Both the position numbers and the translations under genes were made by a program. The notes below the pieces were generated by a model. That model worked only from the letters and a program-made list of their open reading frames with translations, did no database searches and was not told where the DNA came from. Source: a virus. Taken from it: a DNA stretch of 25,294 bases. Positions 1-24,836 of the stretch are shown here, in pieces. The DNA is taken from positions 1 through 25,294 of IMG/VR virus record IMGVR_UViG_3300023179_000474. One strand, given 5' to 3'. Position 1 is the stretch's first letter; the number at the start of each line of letters is the position of its first letter.

Positions 1-152
1 GGTGAGGTGCACCCGTAGCGGGCGAGGTGCGCCGGGCGGGTGAGGTGCGCCCGTAGCGGGCAAGGTGCGCCCGTAGCGGGCAAGGTGCGCCCGTAGCGGG
101 CAAGGTGCGCCGGGCGGGTGAGGTGCGCCCGTAGCGGGCGAGGTGCGCCGGG
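1..152. repeat. GC-rich tandem repeat, 20-bp and 18-bp units
   Basis: Eight head-to-tail units can be read. Full 20-bp units have the form YRAGGTGCGCCCGTAGCGGG (at about 3-22, 41-60, 61-80, 81-100 and 119-138). Shorter 18-bp units (23-40, 101-118) and a last partial unit (139-152) replace CCCGTAGCGGG by CCGGGCGGG. Units 61-80 and 81-100 are identical. The array touches the left edge of the window, so its full length is unknown. It is far richer in G+C than the following 300 bases and has no evident coding potential. Function is unknown; protein-binding site array or recombination-generated satellite are both possible. Confidence 0.9.
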
Positions 153-3782: not shown

Positions 3783-3856
3783 TGGAGGGTATCAAAGGGG
3801 GGGGGTATCCCCTGCTTTTCCACCCCTCCCCCCATCTGCCTTATATATTTCCCACA

Positions 3857-3881
3857 GGCCCTCTTCGGAGGGCCTTTTTTT
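3857..3881 (+). terminator. strong intrinsic terminator
   Basis: GGCCCTC TTCG GAGGGCC forms a seven-base-pair GC-rich stem capped by a UUCG tetraloop (3857-3874), followed immediately by seven T (3875-3881). This is a textbook Rho-independent terminator for the rightward 565-3782 block. It insulates the origin-like region from transcription arriving from the left. Confidence 0.93.
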
Positions 3882-3902
3882 GTGCAATATCCCCGAAAAG
3901 CA

Positions 3903-4130
3903 TCAACAGATTACCGTGGAGTAAAACACTGTATCAACGTATTCCCACGGTAATCTGTTGACAATCTACGGTAATCCGTTGACTCTTTTGCGGTAATCTG
4001 TTGATAGTTGACGCACAATAAATCTGTAACTACCTGAATTTAGGTTCACTTTTGACACTTATTACCGTAGGCCGTTGACACATCGCAACGCAATTTCAAC
4101 TACTTACAGGAAAATTATCAACAGATTACC
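3903..4130. repeat. iteron family A, core GGTAATCTGTTGA, five copies
   Basis: Copies at 3903-3915 (minus), 3949-3961 (plus), 3970-3982 (plus, one change), 3992-4004 (plus) and 4118-4130 (minus). The three plus copies are spaced 21 and 22 bp apart, close to two helical turns, so a bound protein would sit on one face. Copies 1 and 2 form a perfect inverted repeat with a 25-base loop (TCAACAGATTACCGTGG and its complement). A degenerate copy may lie at 4061-4080. Confidence 0.9.
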
Positions 4131-4144
4131 GCAAAAGAGTCAAC
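3978..4144. repeat. perfect 29-bp inverted repeat
   Basis: Arms at 3978-4006 and 4116-4144 are exact reverse complements over 29 bases, starting GTTGACTCTTTTGCGG and ending in the iteron TAATCTGTTGATA. The spacer is 109 bp and AT-rich. The repeat stops exactly at both ends (flanking bases do not pair). It may have arisen from duplication and inversion of an iteron segment, and it may allow looping or cruciform extrusion at the origin. Confidence 0.9.
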
Positions 4145-4257
4145 TTAATTAACGAAATAAAAATATGAGCTAGGGGGGGGAGGGTAACCTTCCGTCAGGT
4201 ACTTAGGTCACTTTTTTCTGCCAGGGTTGCCAGAGGTCTGCCAGACCCCTGGCAGAG

Positions 4258-4507
4258 TTATCCACAGGCTTAAGTCGTTAGAACCACTACATCTTTTCCT
4301 TTTTTACCCTTACTTATCCACAGGCTGCCAGAGGTTACTCAAAGTGAAGTACCTTTTTTTTTTACGGTATTGTGGTGATACTTAATAAAAACACACAGTG
4401 CGTAAAAAAAAAGAGGGCCTTTCCCACTTTTGATCAGACCTCTGGCAGAGTTATCCACAGGCAACCCTCTTTCTCGAATGATATGGCACCCTTAGCCCTG
4501 TGGATAA
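4258..4507. promoter_or_regulatory. four perfect DnaA boxes
   Basis: TTATCCACA, the high-affinity DnaA-box consensus, occurs at 4258-4266, 4314-4322 and 4451-4459 on plus and as TGTGGATAA at 4499-4507 on minus. Each continues to TTATCCACAGG. Three of the four are joined to GGCAGAG or its complement, so box and family-B motif form a composite site. Four exact 9-mers within 250 bp is far above chance. Confidence 0.85.
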
Positions 4508-4521
4508 CTCTGCCAGAGGTC
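4437..4521. repeat. 25-bp perfect inverted repeat carrying two DnaA boxes
   Basis: Arms 4437-4461 and 4497-4521 are exact reverse complements (25 bases) separated by 35 bases. Each arm contains a family-B motif (CTGGCAGAG) fused to a DnaA box (TTATCCACAGG). The design places two DnaA boxes in opposite orientation facing each other. Confidence 0.9.
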
Positions 4522-4666
4522 CAAAAACCTCTGGCAGACCTCTGGCAGGGCTGGCAGAGAGTTCTAGAGATGTCTAACCATTATGAGCAGTTATGGCGTA
4601 AGTGCCTGTTTTCGACCCCTGGCAGACCTCTGGCAGACCCCTGGCAGGTGGTGTACATCACCCCTC

Positions 4667-4945
4667 ATGAGCGACCACGAAACCATCATTCTCATCAACG
4701 ACGGGGACCTCTCCGAGGGCTTCTTCCGTTTCAGCACCACCAAGCCTCTCCAGTTCGCCAAGCTATGCAAGCGAGTTGGTGGCGAGGAGAACCTGCTCTC
4801 CGTCACCACTTCGAGCCACGGAGGCAAAATCACCTCTTGGGTGTGCAAAGTGCCCCTGAAGTACCTCTCCAAGCGAAACTGGAGTATAGGCCCCAAGCGT
4901 AAATCCTCTACAATCCCTCCGAGCCGCCATCCAGCGCACGTTTGA
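4667..4945 (+). CDS. 92-aa conserved phage-type hypothetical protein
   Basis: ATG at 4667 (MSDHETIILINDGDLSEGFF) opens just after the last family-B repeat; no clear ribosome binding site is visible, and an in-frame longer version would run through the repeats, which is unlikely. The body (FAKLCKRVGGEENLLSV, GGKITSWVCKVP, YLSKRNWSIGPKRK) resembles a small phage protein family in which a CKVP motif is followed by a YL-x3-NW-x-(I/V)G end. Function unknown. It lies at the origin edge, so a replication-associated role is possible. Confidence 0.65.
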   Translation: MSDHETIILINDGDLSEGFFRFSTTKPLQFAKLCKRVGGEENLLSVTTSSHGGKITSWVCKVPLKYLSKRNWSIGPKRKSSTIPPSRHPAHV

Positions 4946-5058
4946 GCGACGATCTCCATCGAGGCTATGGGTACCCCTAGCCCCAACGACGATCATCGCT
5001 CCAGAGCGCTTCTAGCGCCTCCTTGTCCTCGCTGATCCCTGGTGCTAGGTCGCCCGGT

Positions 5059-5424
5059 ATGGCTTCAAGGATTTCCGAGCACACCGAGCAATCCCGGTTC
5101 TTCGCCGTACTTCGACGGCTCAAGCAGCCATGGGCTCAGTACGCCTTCGCTATCCCCAACGGCTTCCTTGACAGCAAGGCCAAGCGGATTAGGGCCTGGA
5201 AGGAAGGAATGCTCTCTGGGACTCCCGATGTCTTCATCCCTTTCCCTTCTAAAGGCTTCCACGGCCTCTTCATTGAATTTAAAGCGCATGGGGGCACCCT
5301 CTCTATGGCTCAGAAGGAATTTCTCGCCTACGCCCGTTCTGTGGGCTATAAAGCCGAAGTGGTCTTTTCGCTCCGAGAAGCCCTAGAGGTGCTGAAGGGG
5401 TACGCAGAGGCCGAGGCCCCATGA
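5059..5424 (+). CDS. VRR-NUC domain nuclease
   Basis: 121 residues from the ATG at 5059; a longer form could begin at the TTG at 5023. The fold is the PD-(D/E)XK-type VRR-NUC domain: the basic segment after IPNG (33-35), GTPD (54-57), IEFKA (72-76, catalytic E73 and K75), LSMAQ (81-85) and the terminal VVFSLREAL (101-109). VRR-NUC proteins are stand-alone phage nucleases related to Holliday-junction-type and flap nucleases (as in FAN1). They usually sit in the replication and recombination region, as here. The 3' end runs into a 31-bp repeat shared with the next gene's start. Confidence 0.9.
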   Translation: MASRISEHTEQSRFFAVLRRLKQPWAQYAFAIPNGFLDSKAKRIRAWKEGMLSGTPDVFIPFPSKGFHGLFIEFKAHGGTLSMAQKEFLAYARSVGYKAEVVFSLREALEVLKGYAEAEAP

Positions 5425-5514
5425 GCAAAGAGCCCAAAGCCCCATATGTCGATAGTGGTCATTCACACCCTGGGAGGCCAAAAGCCCCATGAGCAAAGAG
5501 CCCAAAGCCCCATA
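5416..5514. repeat. 31-bp exact direct repeat duplicating a gene start
   Basis: The 31 bases at 5416-5446 recur at 5484-5514 (offset 68). Each copy contains an ATG and encodes MSKEPKAPY. From the first ATG (5421) the frame ends after 23 residues at a TGA (5490-5492) that overlaps the second ATG (5489), an ATGA junction. The first copy may be a leftover start region after tandem duplication, or a short leader peptide coupled to the real gene. Confidence 0.9.
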
Positions 5515-5800
5515 CATCGACTACGACGAAGAGGCCGAGCCCCAGCTGCCCGAAAAGCGTCTCCTAGTGGCCGTCATCCACCGAGCCATCATCGACTACT
5601 CCGTGCCCATATACGACCGACCACACCTACGGTACTGGGCGTCAGCCTGGCTCTTTTCGGACTCCAAGGAAGTCATGAGCCTTTACTGGATATGCGCCCA
5701 CCTGTCCGAAAACCCCGAGAACCTTCAGGAGGCCATCAAGAAAGCCGCTGTCGAACGTCCCATAAAGAAAAACAGCGTTGTAATTCGGGTGGATAAGTGA
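5489..5800 (+). CDS. 103-aa phage protein with RAIIDY / WLFSD motifs
   Basis: The start at 5489 is the second of two identical start regions and gives the complete frame. After an acidic/proline N-terminus, residues 25-90 (LLVAVIHRAIIDYSVP, ASAWLFSDSKEVMSLYWICA, NPENLQEAIKKA) follow a pattern seen in small phage proteins of unknown function: an A-x-RA-x-x-D helix, a W-LFSD segment, then an IC-x-x-L helix. The protein encoded at 12327 has a similar helix (RAVLDLITPG followed by ALEWITG), so the two may be distant relatives. Role unknown. Confidence 0.78.
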   Translation: MSKEPKAPYIDYDEEAEPQLPEKRLLVAVIHRAIIDYSVPIYDRPHLRYWASAWLFSDSKEVMSLYWICAHLSENPENLQEAIKKAAVERPIKKNSVVIRVDK

Positions 5801-5816
5801 TGCCGAGGGGACACAT

Positions 5817-5978
5817 ATGCTAGTAGCTCTCATAGTCCACATAATCCTCACTACCATGGCGCTCTGCCACCTCTCCAAGCAACTACGGTCCCACGGTTTG
5901 GCCATCCTCGCATTGGCCAAGGCTCTGACGCTGGTCATAGAGCACCGACAGAAGCAGGAGGACCGAGAGTGGAATTAG
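5817..5978 (+). CDS. 53-aa small protein with N-terminal hydrophobic helix
   Basis: ATG at 5817 follows GAGGGGACAC. The N-terminal 15 residues are hydrophobic (MLVALIVHIILTTMALC), then come a short basic part, a second moderately hydrophobic stretch (GLAILALAKALTLVI) and a charged tail. It could be a small membrane protein with one or two helices. Its end overlaps the GTG start of the next gene by 10 bases. No family recognised. Confidence 0.5.
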   Translation: MLVALIVHIILTTMALCHLSKQLRSHGLAILALAKALTLVIEHRQKQEDREWN

Positions 5979-6430
5979 ACCAGTGCATCGGCTGTCAGAG
6001 GTGCCTCCAGAGAAAGCCTGGCAAACAGAGAGGCTACCCGTGCGACGAAGGCTGGAAGGGAGCACTTCCCTCCCTCCTCGAGCTCCTAAAGCGCCTGTTC
6101 TCCAAGAAAAAATGGCGGGAGCTGCGAGGACGCATAAAGCCAGGAACCCACAAGAGGGTGAAGAGCGCATATCAGGCAGAGAGAAAAAGAAGACAAAAAG
6201 GCCCCTCAGCTTGGCAGACGGCCCGACGGACCACCGCTCCCTCGGGCCTCTCTATCGACTCAGAGTCTCCAAGGATTGTCACCTCCGCCATCTACGGACC
6301 GAATGCCATGGCACGTAACTTTTTCCCGGATGTTCTCGAGTGCCCCCGGATAACCCTGACCGAAAAAGAAGCCCTCCGACTCACCATCGAGGACCAGAGG
6401 CACAAGCTTCGAAAGATGTATCGGATATGA
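5969..6430 (+). CDS. 153-aa basic protein with N-terminal Cys cluster
   Basis: Starts at GTG 5969 within the end of the previous gene. The N-terminus carries C6-x2-C9-x2-C12 (CIGCQRC) and C25, a pattern for zinc or iron-sulfur binding, close to but not a full ferredoxin motif (no C-x3-CP). The middle is very rich in Lys/Arg (LLKRLFSKKKWRELRGR, AERKRRQKG), suggesting nucleic-acid binding. The C-terminus has a short conserved-looking end (LTEKEALRLTIEDQRHKLRK). Ends in overlap with the TerS-like gene, so it may belong to the packaging module. Function not known. Confidence 0.7.
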   Translation: MELDQCIGCQRCLQRKPGKQRGYPCDEGWKGALPSLLELLKRLFSKKKWRELRGRIKPGTHKRVKSAYQAERKRRQKGPSAWQTARRTTAPSGLSIDSESPRIVTSAIYGPNAMARNFFPDVLECPRITLTEKEALRLTIEDQRHKLRKMYRI

Positions 6431-6984
6431 GTAAAAAAGCGACTGAGAAGTACATTAACCAACTACTAGGCGTAGAGGAACCATTCTCCTCTGCGGTCGA
6501 AAAGACCTCTCCGCTCTCCGTCGACCAGCAGAAGTTCATCGATGCTTACACGACAAACGGCGGAATAACCAAGGCGGCTCTGCGCTCCTCTGGTGTTAGT
6601 AGGGCCTCTCTGGAACGTTGGAAAACAGAAGACCAAGAGTTCAAGAAGGCCTTAAAGATTGCCGAAGAGCATTGGGTTGAAGAGCTCCGCAAGGCCGCAT
6701 TCCTTCGTGCTCAAGCTAAAAGCGACGTGCTCTTGATGTTCCTCTTGAAGGCGATGAAGCCCGAAGAGTTCGATGATGACGTTCGCAAGGCTCAGTATGT
6801 GGGGCTGAATAGTAACCCGGATAATATACCCGTGAGGGCGACACTCGTACGGGATAATAATATACTGGTGCAGAATATATCCCTTGGTACCGAACAGAGC
6901 GACCGCCTCCGTGACATGCTGAAAGAAGAAGAAGCGCTGGAAGTAGAAGGGTCATCAACACCCATCGACGACAAAGAATTCTAG
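6427..6984 (+). CDS. terminase small subunit-like helix-turn-helix protein
   Basis: 185 residues from the ATG at 6427, which overlaps the upstream TGA (ATGA). An N-terminal helix-turn-helix (LSVDQQKFIDAYTTNGGITK, then AALRSSGVSRASLERWK, residues about 30-66) is followed by helices EHWVEELRKAAFLRAQAKSD and LLMFLLKAMKPEEFDD. This arrangement is typical of phage TerS-like proteins and of the phBC6A51-type homeodomain HTH family. TerS recognises the packaging site and loads the large terminase. No large terminase gene follows here, because the next gene is convergent, so the assignment rests on fold only. Confidence 0.78.
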   Translation: MSKKATEKYINQLLGVEEPFSSAVEKTSPLSVDQQKFIDAYTTNGGITKAALRSSGVSRASLERWKTEDQEFKKALKIAEEHWVEELRKAAFLRAQAKSDVLLMFLLKAMKPEEFDDDVRKAQYVGLNSNPDNIPVRATLVRDNNILVQNISLGTEQSDRLRDMLKEEEALEVEGSSTPIDDKEF

Positions 6985-7055: not shown

Positions 7056-9314
7056 TCAGAACGGACAGGGCTCTATGTCAAACACATCATTGGTGACTCT
7101 AATGCCGAAGAAGCCTCGTCGGTTATTGCGCCGCTCTTTCCTCTTTCCGAGGGTGGGGTGCGCTGATATCTCCTGGAAAAACCGCTGCTTATGCTTCGTG
7201 TGCCTCCCTGAGTCCTTGCACCACTCCTTGTACGAAGCCCAGAGGTCATCAGCGGTGACAAAGCTATGTGGCATGTCCTTGACCTCTATGCATTCAGAAA
7301 CATACCCCTGCACACTGTCTAACTGCTCCGTTATCTCTTGTATGGCCTCCAAGCCTTTCTGCGCCGTAAATAGTTTGTCGCCTCTCAAGAGCCTTCTGGC
7401 CCCTACGAGCGCCCAGTTAAAAATGCCCTGCGTCTCCTTTGCCAGCCGCTCCTTCAAGCCCGTGTCCTCCTGGCCCAAGAAGCTCTTCCAGAACGGGAAC
7501 ACTACCATTCTGTTAGTCAGAGCATTCTCATCGTTCAAAAAATTCGGAAGTTTATTGCACACGAAGGCTATCTTTACTCCGAGCCTTTGGAACACAACAG
7601 TTTGCCCTTTTCGGTTTATACCTACTGGGTCATTGCTGGCCAATGACTTAATGCGCTCTGTGGCCACACCCATTCGGTCCAAAGATGCTCTCTCTGCATC
7701 TTGGAAAACACAGAGCTTGCGGCCCATGAGGTTTTCGAGCCCGAAGTCAGAGCCGATGAGAGAGAGCGACGTCGACGCCGTGTTCTCTCGCCCAACGATG
7801 TTCTCAATAACCGATGCCAAGGTGCTCTTCCCCGCTCTTGATGCCCCTTTAAACACTGCGAACTTTTCCATGCTGCAGGATGTGAGTAGGCAGTACCCCA
7901 TCCACAACCGAAGAGACTCGATAAGCTCTGCGTCTCCGTCCCATATATTTTCAAGGAACTTAAGAAACTCAGGACACCCTCCGTCCTCGATATACACCAT
8001 CGGCAATGAATGAAAGCAGAACCACTCCTTCTGGTGTTCTAGAAGCTCGCCCGTCGACACATCCAAGATGCCGTTCTTCACAGTAATGTAGTCCGTTCCC
8101 TCCACACCCTCCTTACGCCAACAGACGTCAGGTATTCCGTATGGCTTCGACAACTCCATCTTCACGATCTTACGCACGTCAGAGAACATCGACGCTTTAA
8201 TGGTCTGGGTAACCTCTTGTGGCATGTCACGAAAGATAAGGCTCTCAATCGCACCATCCGTGATAACTCTCCACATTTTTCGATTTGTGTCATAATGTAC
8301 AAATTGCCCATCGAAGCAATCGACCGTGCCCTTCATCCGCTCAATAAACACCCGAGCGTTATGCACTGCATGTTTTTTCGAGTACGCCAGAACCGTCTGC
8401 TGCTCCACCACAACTGGCTCCTCATCGAAAACGTGCTCTATCGACATATTCCCTTGGCCCCTTTGGGCATACTTAAAGGCATTCTTCACCTTCTCGGCTA
8501 ACTCTTGAGTGCCCCACGGAGGGCTGCATCGGTGATTATACTCTTCAGTCAGTAGGTCGAATACCTGCCGTTGTGACAATCCGTAGTCACGGCACATCAA
8601 AGCAGCCTTCAATGTCTGCAGGTCTCCGCCTCCTCCTTCGATTGCCGGAGGAAAAGAGCGAATGGCGAGTCGTGCGGCATGAAGGTCTAAGTTACCGCCA
8701 AGCTTGTCTTCTTCTTTCCTTTTCTCTATAGGCCGAAGGGTGGAGGTCATCTCGTCAACTATCCACTGCGGGAGCTCGTCTGCTTCTTCGAGCACATCGA
8801 GTAGGTCTAGGCCCCGGTCGAACGCATAGGCTCCGAGGCCGCTCTGATGCACCGATGGCCATGTCACTACTTGGTTACCACCGTCCGCAAGGATGTCGAC
8901 GCCTTTGAAGATTCTTGCGGCACTACTCCTCGATTTGAGCTCTCCTTCGATGTTGGTCGGATAGCGGTAGTAGAGATGCATTCCTCCGCTTGGACTTCGC
9001 TCGACTATTGGATTGCCGAGATGCATCTCGTGCTCCTCGTACCATCCAGGCTCATCGATATCGACGCACACGAGCCCGGAGGCTTTTCCCGTCACAACGC
9101 CGATGTTACAGCCGCCTTCCTTGGCCCATACTCGCTCCAACTCTTTTGAAAGCTCTTCCCACGCCTGCTTTTTCTTTTGCCATCCGTATTGCGTTGGAGC
9201 CTTGCCCCGCTTGACGGAGTTTTGGCACTTAGCACTATGAACTGCAATGATCTGCAGTCCATTGAGCACATATTTTTCTGCCACTTCAAAGAGTAGCTGC
9301 TTTTCTTGATTCAT
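7056..9314 (-). CDS. primase-polymerase / SF3 helicase fusion
   Basis: 752 residues; ATG at 9314 follows GGGAGG by 7 bases. N-terminal Prim-Pol domain (about 1-190): NIGVVTG (70-76), metal-binding VDID (84-87), SGGMHLYYRYP (109-119) with the active-site His, and GVDILADGGNQVV (138-150). A central PriCT-like helical region follows (about 205-285). The C-terminal SF3/D5 helicase has Walker A GASRAGKS (490-497), Walker B KLCVFQDAE (533-541), sensor NKLP (587-590) and an arginine at 602. This architecture makes primers and unwinds the phage origin, as in P4-type alpha proteins and D5-like helicases. It likely works on the origin 2.5 kb to the left. Complete and intact. Confidence 0.96.
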   Translation of the reverse strand: MNQEKQLLFEVAEKYVLNGLQIIAVHSAKCQNSVKRGKAPTQYGWQKKKQAWEELSKELERVWAKEGGCNIGVVTGKASGLVCVDIDEPGWYEEHEMHLGNPIVERSPSGGMHLYYRYPTNIEGELKSRSSAARIFKGVDILADGGNQVVTWPSVHQSGLGAYAFDRGLDLLDVLEEADELPQWIVDEMTSTLRPIEKRKEEDKLGGNLDLHAARLAIRSFPPAIEGGGGDLQTLKAALMCRDYGLSQRQVFDLLTEEYNHRCSPPWGTQELAEKVKNAFKYAQRGQGNMSIEHVFDEEPVVVEQQTVLAYSKKHAVHNARVFIERMKGTVDCFDGQFVHYDTNRKMWRVITDGAIESLIFRDMPQEVTQTIKASMFSDVRKIVKMELSKPYGIPDVCWRKEGVEGTDYITVKNGILDVSTGELLEHQKEWFCFHSLPMVYIEDGGCPEFLKFLENIWDGDAELIESLRLWMGYCLLTSCSMEKFAVFKGASRAGKSTLASVIENIVGRENTASTSLSLIGSDFGLENLMGRKLCVFQDAERASLDRMGVATERIKSLASNDPVGINRKGQTVVFQRLGVKIAFVCNKLPNFLNDENALTNRMVVFPFWKSFLGQEDTGLKERLAKETQGIFNWALVGARRLLRGDKLFTAQKGLEAIQEITEQLDSVQGYVSECIEVKDMPHSFVTADDLWASYKEWCKDSGRHTKHKQRFFQEISAHPTLGKRKERRNNRRGFFGIRVTNDVFDIEPCPF

Positions 9315-9331: not shown

Positions 9332-9853
9332 TTATTCTTTGCCTACGTCTTCTTCAGACTCAAAAAGCACCGTAGCTACCTTCGTCGTTTTTCTGTATTC
9401 ACGCACGGGTTTTTTTGCGTTGTAGCGCCAAATAGTTCCGACCTCGTCAGTTCGTTGGAATCCACGCCTTCCCGTTTGAGCATAAAAGTCTAACTTGTTA
9501 TTTTTTTTTCTCTCGGCTACGAACTCTTTTTTTTCGAGCCGATAGAGCCTCACAGACTCCAGCTTATCTTCGTAATCTTTCAGTCTTTCTAGCCCCACAG
9601 AGTCGGCGATTTCTTGCCACAAAAGATTGATGGCATGAAGGATAAGATCGTTGCGAGAGATTCCGAAGTGTAAGCACAAAATATTCATGTAGTGCTCAGT
9701 CTCTTCAGATAGTTTGAGCTCCGTTCTGACTTTAACAACGTTCCATAATTTCTTCCTAAACGACCTCGGGAGCTCTGGGACTTTTGTACCACGACCCAGT
9801 TCTTCGAGCTTTGGAGTTCTCGTCTTAAAGTTTTCTTTGACGCCCTTTGGCAT
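9332..9853 (-). CDS. 173-aa protein with ribbon-helix-helix-like segment
   Basis: ATG at 9853 follows AAAAGGTAAG. Residues 42-80 (VRTELKLSEETEHYMNILCL, GISRNDLILHAINLLWQEIA) show the strand-helix-helix pattern of ribbon-helix-helix DNA-binding proteins: an alternating strand, then SEE, then GISRNDLI. The C-terminal half is rich in Lys/Arg and Tyr. It precedes the primase by 17 bp on the same strand and opens directly onto the divergent control region at 9854-9900. It could autoregulate that region, or serve as an initiator reading the iterons; both are inference. Confidence 0.72.
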   Translation of the reverse strand: MPKGVKENFKTRTPKLEELGRGTKVPELPRSFRKKLWNVVKVRTELKLSEETEHYMNILCLHFGISRNDLILHAINLLWQEIADSVGLERLKDYEDKLESVRLYRLEKKEFVAERKKNNKLDFYAQTGRRGFQRTDEVGTIWRYNAKKPVREYRKTTKVATVLFESEEDVGKE

Positions 9854-18915: not shown

Positions 18916-19137
18916 ATGAACCGTGGTGCCAAATCTCTTTACGATAAATATGCGTTTCGTTCCAAACACGACAAGAACTCTTTTGAGTGCGGAGCCACTT
19001 CGCTTAAAAAAGAGATAGAGGAATGGATTAAGGAGCAAATGAAAGGCAAGAGGGGAGACGCCTTCTCTATGGGCCAGGATGATGGATTGCAGTGGGTGCT
19101 AGATCATCTCCGTTTCATATTTGACGAAGAGCAATAA
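18916..19137 (+). CDS. 73-aa hypothetical protein
   Basis: ATG at 18916 follows AGGAGGCAGT. A charged helical protein ending in SMGQDDGLQWVLDHLRFIFD, a style common in small phage proteins (a G-x-x-x-G-x-x-x-x-L helix). Its 3' end overlaps the convergent leftward gene by 23 bases. Function unknown. Confidence 0.68.
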   Translation: MNRGAKSLYDKYAFRSKHDKNSFECGATSLKKEIEEWIKEQMKGKRGDAFSMGQDDGLQWVLDHLRFIFDEEQ

Positions 19138-19645
19138 ACTCTTTTCTGAGCTTATTGAACTCTCGCCGCATGAGCTCCACATCGCCGTGCCTAACAGTGG
19201 CAAACTGACAGATAACCTTGCGAATAAAGTCTTCTGGTGTATGAACGCACAACAGAGGCATATCTTTATAGATAGGATGAACAGAAAGTATCTGGCCCCT
19301 CCGCTTGGCGTACTGAGCCTCAAGCTCTGTCGCAACTGCTTTTAATATCTCTACTTTCTTTTGCTTAGGTAAATTGTGAATCGCTGAAGAGATATGGTGC
19401 ATCCCATCCGTAAGAAACTCTCGTTTCAAAGATACTGGGTGATATTCGACAAACGTATTATCAACACGGAAGTCAAAAATGGTGCGGCCTACTTTTATTT
19501 GGCATGTAATCCCATCGATACCTTGCCAGTCTGTATACTTCTCTAGCATCTTAGCACACGCATACTCACTGGCACTTTGAAAGTTTAAATGCTCTACAGG
19601 AAGCTCAGGAAGGTTAAAAGGCTCTTGGACTCTTTGATGCCTCAT
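19115..19645 (-). CDS. PD-(D/E)XK-like protein, paralogue 1
   Basis: 176 residues; ATG at 19645 overlaps the upstream stop (ATGA). FQSASEYACAKMLEKY (22-37) carries E27, then CQIKVGRTIFDFRVDNTF (48-65) with Q49 and D58, and VEYHPVSLKREF (66-77) with E67 and H69. The order E, Q, D-F, V-E-x-H-P fits a compact nuclease core in which the usual lysine may be replaced. The protein from 24321 has the same pattern at nearly identical spacing. It is leftward between rightward genes, like an accessory cassette. Nuclease activity is inferred only. Confidence 0.6.
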   Translation of the reverse strand: MRHQRVQEPFNLPELPVEHLNFQSASEYACAKMLEKYTDWQGIDGITCQIKVGRTIFDFRVDNTFVEYHPVSLKREFLTDGMHHISSAIHNLPKQKKVEILKAVATELEAQYAKRRGQILSVHPIYKDMPLLCVHTPEDFIRKVICQFATVRHGDVELMRREFNKLRKEFIALRQI

Positions 19646-20289: not shown

Positions 20290-20538
20290 ATGAACAATGC
20301 AAAGGCAAACGTAATAACCGCTATGAAGATATGCGGCATGGAAGCAATCAGTGAAGGCGGAATGTACCACGCTCTCTTCTCTCAAGGACTGGCAGCTGAC
20401 GAAGCAACAATGGTCGTCAAGGAACTCCTAGACGAAGGATGGATTTCACGTTCTGGTTGTGCCTTTATTTTAAAGCACTATGTTCGCAATCATGGCGAAG
20501 AAAGTTCCTCTCGGGAACGGTCAGTTTGCAATAGTTGA
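20290..20538 (+). CDS. 82-aa winged-helix-like protein, 3' end overlapped by HNH gene
   Basis: ATG at 20290 follows AGGAGGCACT. Residues 10-62 (MKICGMEAISEGGMYHALFS, then EATMVVKELLDEGWISRSG, CAFILK) have the helix-helix-wing feel of small winged-helix proteins. The last ~16 residues (NHGEESSSRERSVCNS) are encoded by DNA that is the start of the HNH gene, in another frame, and look unrelated. The original C-terminus may have been replaced when the HNH gene entered. Confidence 0.58.
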   Translation: MNNAKANVITAMKICGMEAISEGGMYHALFSQGLAADEATMVVKELLDEGWISRSGCAFILKHYVRNHGEESSSRERSVCNS

Positions 20539-24320: not shown

Positions 24321-24836
24321 TTAAAACCTATGCCGAGCTAAAGCATCAAACTCCGCAATAAAATTTGCTTGTTTTGGATACCCAACCCCGAACCGTTTAA
24401 TAACCAGTTGATACAGATCGACATGATCCTGACACACGATTAGTTCTGAATCTTTGCCTCCGTGCAGCGACACTAAAAACTTGCGTCGTTGATAGTATTT
24501 CTCAGCAAACTCCTGCTTGATCGCTTTTACTATCTGCTCTCGAAACGGATGAGCGACGTGCCGCAACGCCTGAGAAAATTCTCTTGCCGCTTGTCGGTCT
24601 GAAAACTCGTGGCGAAGGTTAATGGGGTGGAACTCCACAAAAACGCCATTTACTAAAAAGTCGCACTGCTTGTTGTGGCCTATTGGCACTTGAAACGTGT
24701 GCCCCATTTTTAATTCATAATCGCCAACGTAGCGCTCCAATAACATTCCCGCCGCATACTCCGCATAACTTGCAAACGTAATGGGGCGGTCAGGTAAAGT
24801 GGGTAATCGTGCTCGTGGCTGATTAAACTGACTCAT
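24321..24836 (-). CDS. PD-(D/E)XK-like protein, paralogue 2
   Basis: 171 residues; ATG at 24836 follows GGAGATAGTGG and overlaps the preceding gene by 14 bases. FASYAEYAAGMLLERY (21-36) with E26, FQVPIGHNKQCDFLVNGVF (48-66) with Q49 and D59, and VEFHPINLRHEF (67-78) with E68 and H70 match the 19115 protein in order and spacing; both end in a helical C-terminal half. The D-F-x7-V-E-x-H-P core resembles small restriction-type nucleases. Presence in a virion/late cluster is unexpected for such an enzyme. Activity is inferred. Confidence 0.62.
   Translation of the reverse strand: MSQFNQPRARLPTLPDRPITFASYAEYAAGMLLERYVGDYELKMGHTFQVPIGHNKQCDFLVNGVFVEFHPINLRHEFSDRQAAREFSQALRHVAHPFREQIVKAIKQEFAEKYYQRRKFLVSLHGGKDSELIVCQDHVDLYQLVIKRFGVGYPKQANFIAEFDALARHRF

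Follow-up and report, generated by a model that had tools for sequence, protein, structure and literature searches.

A replicon with a P4-type primase-helicase is believed to be independent of host initiation proteins, and P4-type replicons usually do not require DnaA. In satellite phage P4, the alpha protein first binds short repeats of the origin and goes on to unwind and prime (PMC4234260). The annotated type 1 repeats of the P4 origin stand in mixed orientation at 10-11-bp steps. For pRN1-type proteins, which carry Prim-Pol and SF3 domains, a large stem-loop is required in pRN1 and has been proposed for phage BIP-1 (PMC4234260). In Bordetella phage BPP-1, a near-identical relative of BIP-1, we found a long stem at about 26591-26710. 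In iteron plasmid origins, DnaA boxes, iterons, and an AT-rich segment make up the standard design (PMC4980987). In this study, we compared these systems with a locus at 3896-4647 of an uncultured phage, which is most likely the replication origin of its lineage and is referred to below as the putative origin.

The window, that is, the whole stretch analysed, is the complete IMG/VR record IMGVR_UViG_3300023179_000474 of 25,294 bases. The site is shared by three further records, G1 (24.4 kb), G2 (51.7 kb), and G3 (27.1 kb), with a primase identity of 91-94%. G2 and G3 are 99.9% identical and represent one phage; hence, the comparison covers three independent lineages only, the window included. 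All four records are fragments, and G3 and G2 together give a genome size of at least about 55 kb. DUF932 as query returned the same relatives only, and no similar DNA was found in phages and plasmids (72,556 plasmids searched). No host was found; the nearest relatives of the primase and terminase are below 32% identity and come from varied hosts.

The site is a gene-free stretch of about 750 bases between phage genes, with no credible gene in about 3885-4666 of the window. On its left, an intrinsic terminator (3856..3884, + strand; 8-pair stem at 3856-3875, then a T-run) closes the DUF932 operon. The terminator is kept in G3; in G1, its form is kept and its stem sequence is changed. The next gene on the right is a short one (4667-4945; 86% identity in G1). 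It stands between the site and the VRR-NUC gene in the window and G1 (4627-5022) and is absent from G2 and G3, which places the right-hand limit of the conserved region near 4626. The terminase small subunit gene lies 1.7 kb to the right of the site, and the large terminase gene is far off, near the other end of G2 (terminase match). No RNA families were found. The DUF932, VRR_NUC, and Prim-Pol/D5 identities were confirmed in the window. The gene-free region, the terminator on its left flank, the DUF932 and VRR-NUC neighbours, and the phage's own Prim-Pol/SF3 primase are as the original prediction had described them. The prediction had also read the DUF932/VRR-NUC adjacency as a hint on initiation; the adjacency says nothing about initiation and does not support this.

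Exact DnaA boxes (TTATCCACA) occur four times at the site, at 4258 (+), 4314 (+), 4451 (+), and 4499 (-), and none was found elsewhere in the 25,294 bases of the window. CTGGCAG/CTGCCAG, counted on either strand, occurs 12 times within 4218-4647; the 13th copy in the window lies at 20389, inside an ORF. The iteron GGTAATCTGTTGA has four exact copies (3903-, 3949+, 3992+, and 4118-) and a fifth with one mismatch (GGTAATCCGTTGA at 3970+). Of the motifs listed in the original prediction, the four exact DnaA boxes stand. The claimed thirteen CTGGCAG/CTGCCAG motifs and five iterons are real arrays, with the counts corrected to 12 at the site and to four exact copies plus one variant, respectively. 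Chance would give the window 0.18 DnaA boxes, 3.7 CTGGCAG motifs, and 0.0025 iterons (400 dinucleotide-preserving shuffles); the four DnaA boxes thus form a cluster beyond chance, as expected of a DnaA-dependent origin. The largest cluster in 450 bp held 1, 3, and 1 copies of the DnaA box, CTGGCAG, and the iteron in the 400 shuffles versus 4, 12, and 4 observed. In a viral background of 118 unselected stretches fetched for another motif (1.07 Mb), 16 DnaA boxes were present, with no cluster above 2.

The right half of the site is a dyad (4217-4558), in which two inverted blocks of 52 and 62 bp surround an easily melted centre. Block L (4217..4268) contains CTGGCAG-type boxes and DnaA box 1 (4258-4266). 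Block R (4497..4558), its inverted copy at 92% identity, contains DnaA box 4 and CTGGCAG-type boxes. The 228 bp between the blocks hold DnaA boxes 2 and 3 and the melted segment. DnaA box 2 (4314..4322, +) lies 56 bp from box 1, is followed by CTGCCAG at 4325, and is invariant in the three lineages. The easily melted AT-rich segment 2 (4334..4393), near the dyad centre, is in the top 0.7% least stable of the window; in G1, no other 60-bp segment of the record is less stable. In G1, the two blocks share some of their changes relative to the window (alignment columns 10 and 20), an indication that the symmetry is maintained.

A large stem-loop (4437..4521) overlaps block R, with 25-bp perfect arms (4437-4461 and 4497-4521) and a 35-nt loop. 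Its arms carry DnaA box 3 (4451-4459, +) and DnaA box 4 (4499-4507, -), with one CTGGCAG box per arm. Apart from the terminal tandem array, no 100-nt segment of the window folds more stably. The fold z-scores are -9.1, -7.8, and -6.2 and the stem lengths 25, 24, and 20 bp in the window, G3, and G1, respectively. Since the arms are nearly invariant, covariation cannot separate a needed stem from paired binding sites. Farther right, three CTGGCAG boxes stand 11 bp apart (4619..4647, +), and a fifth DnaA box is present at this place in G2 and G3. The CTGGCAG steps within groups are 11, 11, 9, 11, and 11 bp. Each DnaA box adjoins a CTGGCAG box within repeated units; because the DnaA box is part of the copied repeat, the boxes are only partly independent of one another. 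Beyond the original prediction, the analysis revealed the inverted-block dyad, the 25-bp stem-loop with two DnaA boxes, and the P4-like CTGGCAG spacing.

As with P4 ori/crr, a P4-family primase-helicase is encoded, and, as at P4 ori, short repeats stand in both orientations at steps of about one turn (10-11 bp in P4, 9-11 bp here), with repeats of more than one type in the origin. However, the repeat is TGTTCACC in P4 and CTGGCAG here, and no TGTTCACC array was found among the clustered k-mers of the window. The P4 genome has one exact DnaA box and no cluster, whereas the DnaA boxes here lie in the arms, and P4 alpha has a Toprim primase domain in place of Prim-Pol (PMC4234260). The site is not filed as a P4 ori; by analogy, it would only work like one. 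Like pRN1, the phage has a Prim-Pol plus SF3 protein, and its stem-loop, lying 3' of the primase gene, may correspond to the large one of pRN1, which has a 21-nt stem and a 58-nt loop (PMC4234260). Unlike in pRN1 and BPP-1, the stem-loop here, present and conserved, is 2.5 kb from the primase gene, and pRN1, unlike the site, has no iterons. A Gp2.5-like SSB, an exonuclease, and a helicase are common to this phage and BPP-1; unlike this phage, BPP-1 has no exact DnaA box and has its own DNA polymerase.

The left half is an iteron dyad (3896..4144) of GGTAATCTGTTGA-type repeats in both orientations, with an inverted repeat of 32 bp (3978-4009/4113-4144). Its three + strand iterons follow each other at 21- and 22-bp steps, the helical spacing of direct repeats in iteron-type origins. 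The easily melted AT-rich segment 1 (4105..4164) is a candidate unwinding element; it is the least stable 60-bp segment of the region and in the top 0.4% of the window for low stability (nearest-neighbour energy). Within the region, the least stable 60-bp segments begin at 4105, 4334, and 4004 and fall in the top 0.4-1.4% of the window, which agrees with the AT-rich tracts predicted; segments 1 and 2 (top 0.4-0.7%) have the character of the unwinding element of a DnaA-dependent origin. The G-tract TAGGGGGGGGAGGGTAACCT (4171..4190, +), a single copy in the window, sits between both dyads and is identical in the window, G3, and G1. G-runs usually drift. Like RK2 oriV, P1 oriR, and pSC101, the site combines iterons about two turns apart, several DnaA boxes, and AT-rich segments (PMC4980987). 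Unlike in iteron plasmids and phage-plasmids, the candidate initiator is a P4-type primase-helicase, and the proteins scanned included no identifiable initiator of the plasmid RepA/TrfA type.

The window, G1, G2, and G3 have their exact DnaA boxes in the site region only, and the remainder of the 51.7-kb G2 record contained none. In the alignment of the three lineages, the invariant columns were 36/36 for the DnaA boxes, 67/70 for CTGGCAG, 49/65 for the iterons, and 351/560 for the rest of the region. When the box positions were shifted circularly, the observed conservation was matched in 2 of 730 shifts for DnaA and in 0 of 730 for CTGGCAG. The iteron columns are less conserved (196 of 730 shifts do equally well), partly because G1 lost one copy and changed others together; iteron-type repeats occur at the same place in G1 and G3, in 4-6 copies with 0-2 mismatches. 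In each of the three lineages, the DnaA boxes keep their spacings of 56 and 48 bp; the long gap in the middle deviates by 2 bp in G1. Both the boxes and their spacing are thus conserved, as in a DnaA-dependent origin, and the original prediction, which had staked the origin on motif conservation in close relatives, passes on this point.

The candidate initiator is the P4-family primase-helicase (7056..9314, -), whose Pfam domains are Prim-Pol, D5_N/SF3, DUF5906, and a C-terminal Pox_D5. It scored 183.6 bits against NCBIfam TIGR01613 (P4-family; cut-off 108.7). For an iteron-type origin, it may at most be a candidate for the cognate initiator encoded nearby. A profile search of the PDB gave 7ola/7om0 as its sole relative; the entry carries the label DNA primase, and we take it to be the Rep protein of a staphylococcal pathogenicity island, of a family of self-loading helicases. 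Related work is cited in PMC10061031. Directly upstream on the same strand, a small conserved protein is encoded (9332..9853, -; phrog_876, E 2e-4; 88% identity in relatives). It is weakly phage-repressor-like and a candidate DNA-binding partner. A structure model of this protein had low confidence (pLDDT 43) and was not used. Other phage proteins are an Enc34-type SSB, a DUF2800/PD-(D/E)XK nuclease, an SNF2-type helicase, and the VRR-NUC protein. PolA, DnaB, DnaA C-terminal, and integrase families were not found in the four incomplete records, and neither were the ParB and AAA_31 ParA families, the partition genes that would mark a phage-plasmid. An integrated prophage was rejected because no integrase family was found.

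DnaA-box clusters were not found near primase relatives at 27-31% identity, nor in six phages whose primases are P4-type or related, VpaJT_1, BPP-1, 141O35-1, P4, Sfi21, and 1.055.O (for two of these, 50 of about 60 kb were covered). Viral contigs were scanned for two DnaA boxes 20-50 bp apart; at least 120 stretches were returned, and 119 were examined. Among the matches listed, 46 of the 119 had four or more DnaA boxes in 450 bp, several with a second repeat array. No P4-type primase was found in the part of each of these 46 contigs covered. L154, L171, and L203 resemble the site in having four or more TTATCCACA within 450 bp beside a second repeat array; unlike the site, their second repeats are AGGTTTGG or of the ATATAAGCAT type, with no P4-type primase in the stretches covered. 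DnaA-box origins in phages are a recurring, known kind, and the pairing of such a cluster with a P4-type primase looks unusual. In L171 (2850-3700) and L154 (9600-10500), the DnaA boxes stand beside nine or more copies of the second repeat. A GP88 protein is encoded in both L171 and G2. A search of viral contigs with CGGTAATCTGTTGA alone returned at least 120 stretches with one match each, which was read as chance, and a relaxed TGGCANNNTTATCCACAG scan found no further stretch with a comparable CTGGCAG array.

The cumulative GC skew, which the original prediction had named as a check, gives no support, with a local maximum and not a minimum at the site in both the window and a relative. In phages, skew follows transcription and a GC-skew minimum is not required. 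For most of its length, this genome agrees with that rule; the switch from + to - at the site lies between same-strand genes and is not explained by gene direction. GC skew was therefore dropped as an origin marker, having the opposite sign at the site and being dominated by transcription elsewhere. It is evidence of modest weight against an origin, which it makes less probable without excluding it. At 4750-6500, GC skew is negative and AT skew strongly positive in the + strand genes, in contrast to those on the + strand left of the site, and the relative shows the same switch.

Taken overall, the site is best and probably explained as a composite theta-type origin that uses host DnaA together with the phage primase-helicase. 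Initiation is likely of the theta type, in which host DnaA would bind the four or five consensus boxes and bend or melt the AT-rich segments. With somewhat less than an even chance, the Prim-Pol/SF3 primase-helicase would assemble on the dyad at the same site, by analogy with P4 alpha, its likely contacts being the CTGGCAG boxes spaced 9-11 bp apart and the stem-loop. Inverted blocks around a melted centre would allow two helicases to be loaded pointing apart. The GGTAATCTGTTGA iterons would serve another phage protein, conceivably the 9332-9853 product, although we consider binding of this dyad by a second phage protein rather unlikely. Elongation would likely be carried out by the host polymerase, as no PolA or DnaB was found in the incomplete records. 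That the site fires, that DnaA is needed, and which protein takes which repeat are what we infer from directly observed anatomy, excess over chance, conservation, and gene content. The dual host and phage initiation proposed originally is partly supported, by the composite conserved site and the phage's own primase-helicase, and not by GC skew or adjacency.

The distance of 2.5 kb between the primase gene and the site, the distant primase relatives without a DnaA cluster nearby, and the usual DnaA independence of P4-type replication count against the composite origin. It is improbable, but deserves some weight, that the phage primase-helicase drives the origin alone, as related primases elsewhere work without DnaA clusters, and that a shared repeat unit has left the DnaA boxes, each lying beside a CTGGCAG box, behind as a relic without use. 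This reading would have to explain why the DnaA columns are the most conserved (36/36) while the rest of the same units changes, and why a fifth box was gained or kept in G3. Four or five strictly conserved consensus boxes and no skew minimum would also suit a sink that, like datA, titrates host DnaA and holds back host chromosome replication, with the true origin elsewhere. We consider this quite improbable, because it leaves the second repeat families, the dyad with matched changes, the fixed spacings, and the AT-rich centre unexplained, and no other motif cluster of this kind was found in the window.

An equally improbable reading takes the site as a regulatory region, with the repeats as phage repressor operators and DnaA as a transcription factor acting on both flanking operons. 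It is gene-free, follows a terminator, and lies upstream of the rightward operon; its iterons overlap two promoter-like sites (3979-4008 and 4143-4114), and the genome encodes two small possible DNA-binding proteins. However, shuffles give about as many promoter-like sites (1.3 vs 2 observed), the repeat families occur at one site and not before other operons, and twelve operators of fixed geometry together with a 25-bp stem-loop go beyond the usual operator layout. A locus with repeat arrays, 1.7 kb from the terminase small subunit, might instead be a centromere-like partition site or a packaging site. This is very improbable, as ParB and AAA_31 ParA families were not found in the four incomplete records, the large terminase gene is far off, and neither function explains the DnaA boxes.

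If the composite origin is accepted, a hybrid class can be proposed, though only as a tentative and doubtful idea, in which a self-loading helicase of the P4-type Prim-Pol/SF3 kind uses a stem-loop or dyad whose arms contain host DnaA boxes; a phage replicon normally independent of DnaA would then be gated by, or compete for, the host initiator. If true, a need for DnaA at the same site would tie phage replication to the host cell cycle, and the site would be a compact natural system in which an SF3 helicase and DnaA share one origin. The combination of a DnaA box with inverted boxes spaced 11 bp apart could serve as a signature for origins in uncultured phages, which are mostly unmapped.

Two paralog-like ORFs at 19115-19645 (-) and 24321-24836 (-), with no Pfam family, have in common a DFxV...FVEYHP-like motif resembling nucleases. 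Contig ends were rejected as genome ends because they fall in tandem repeats, and they are probably assembly breaks. The window (1-152), L128 (1-163), G1 (1-210), and L127 (11361-11734) end in GC-rich tandem arrays, and, among the ends checked that fall in repeats, the arrays differ in each lineage.
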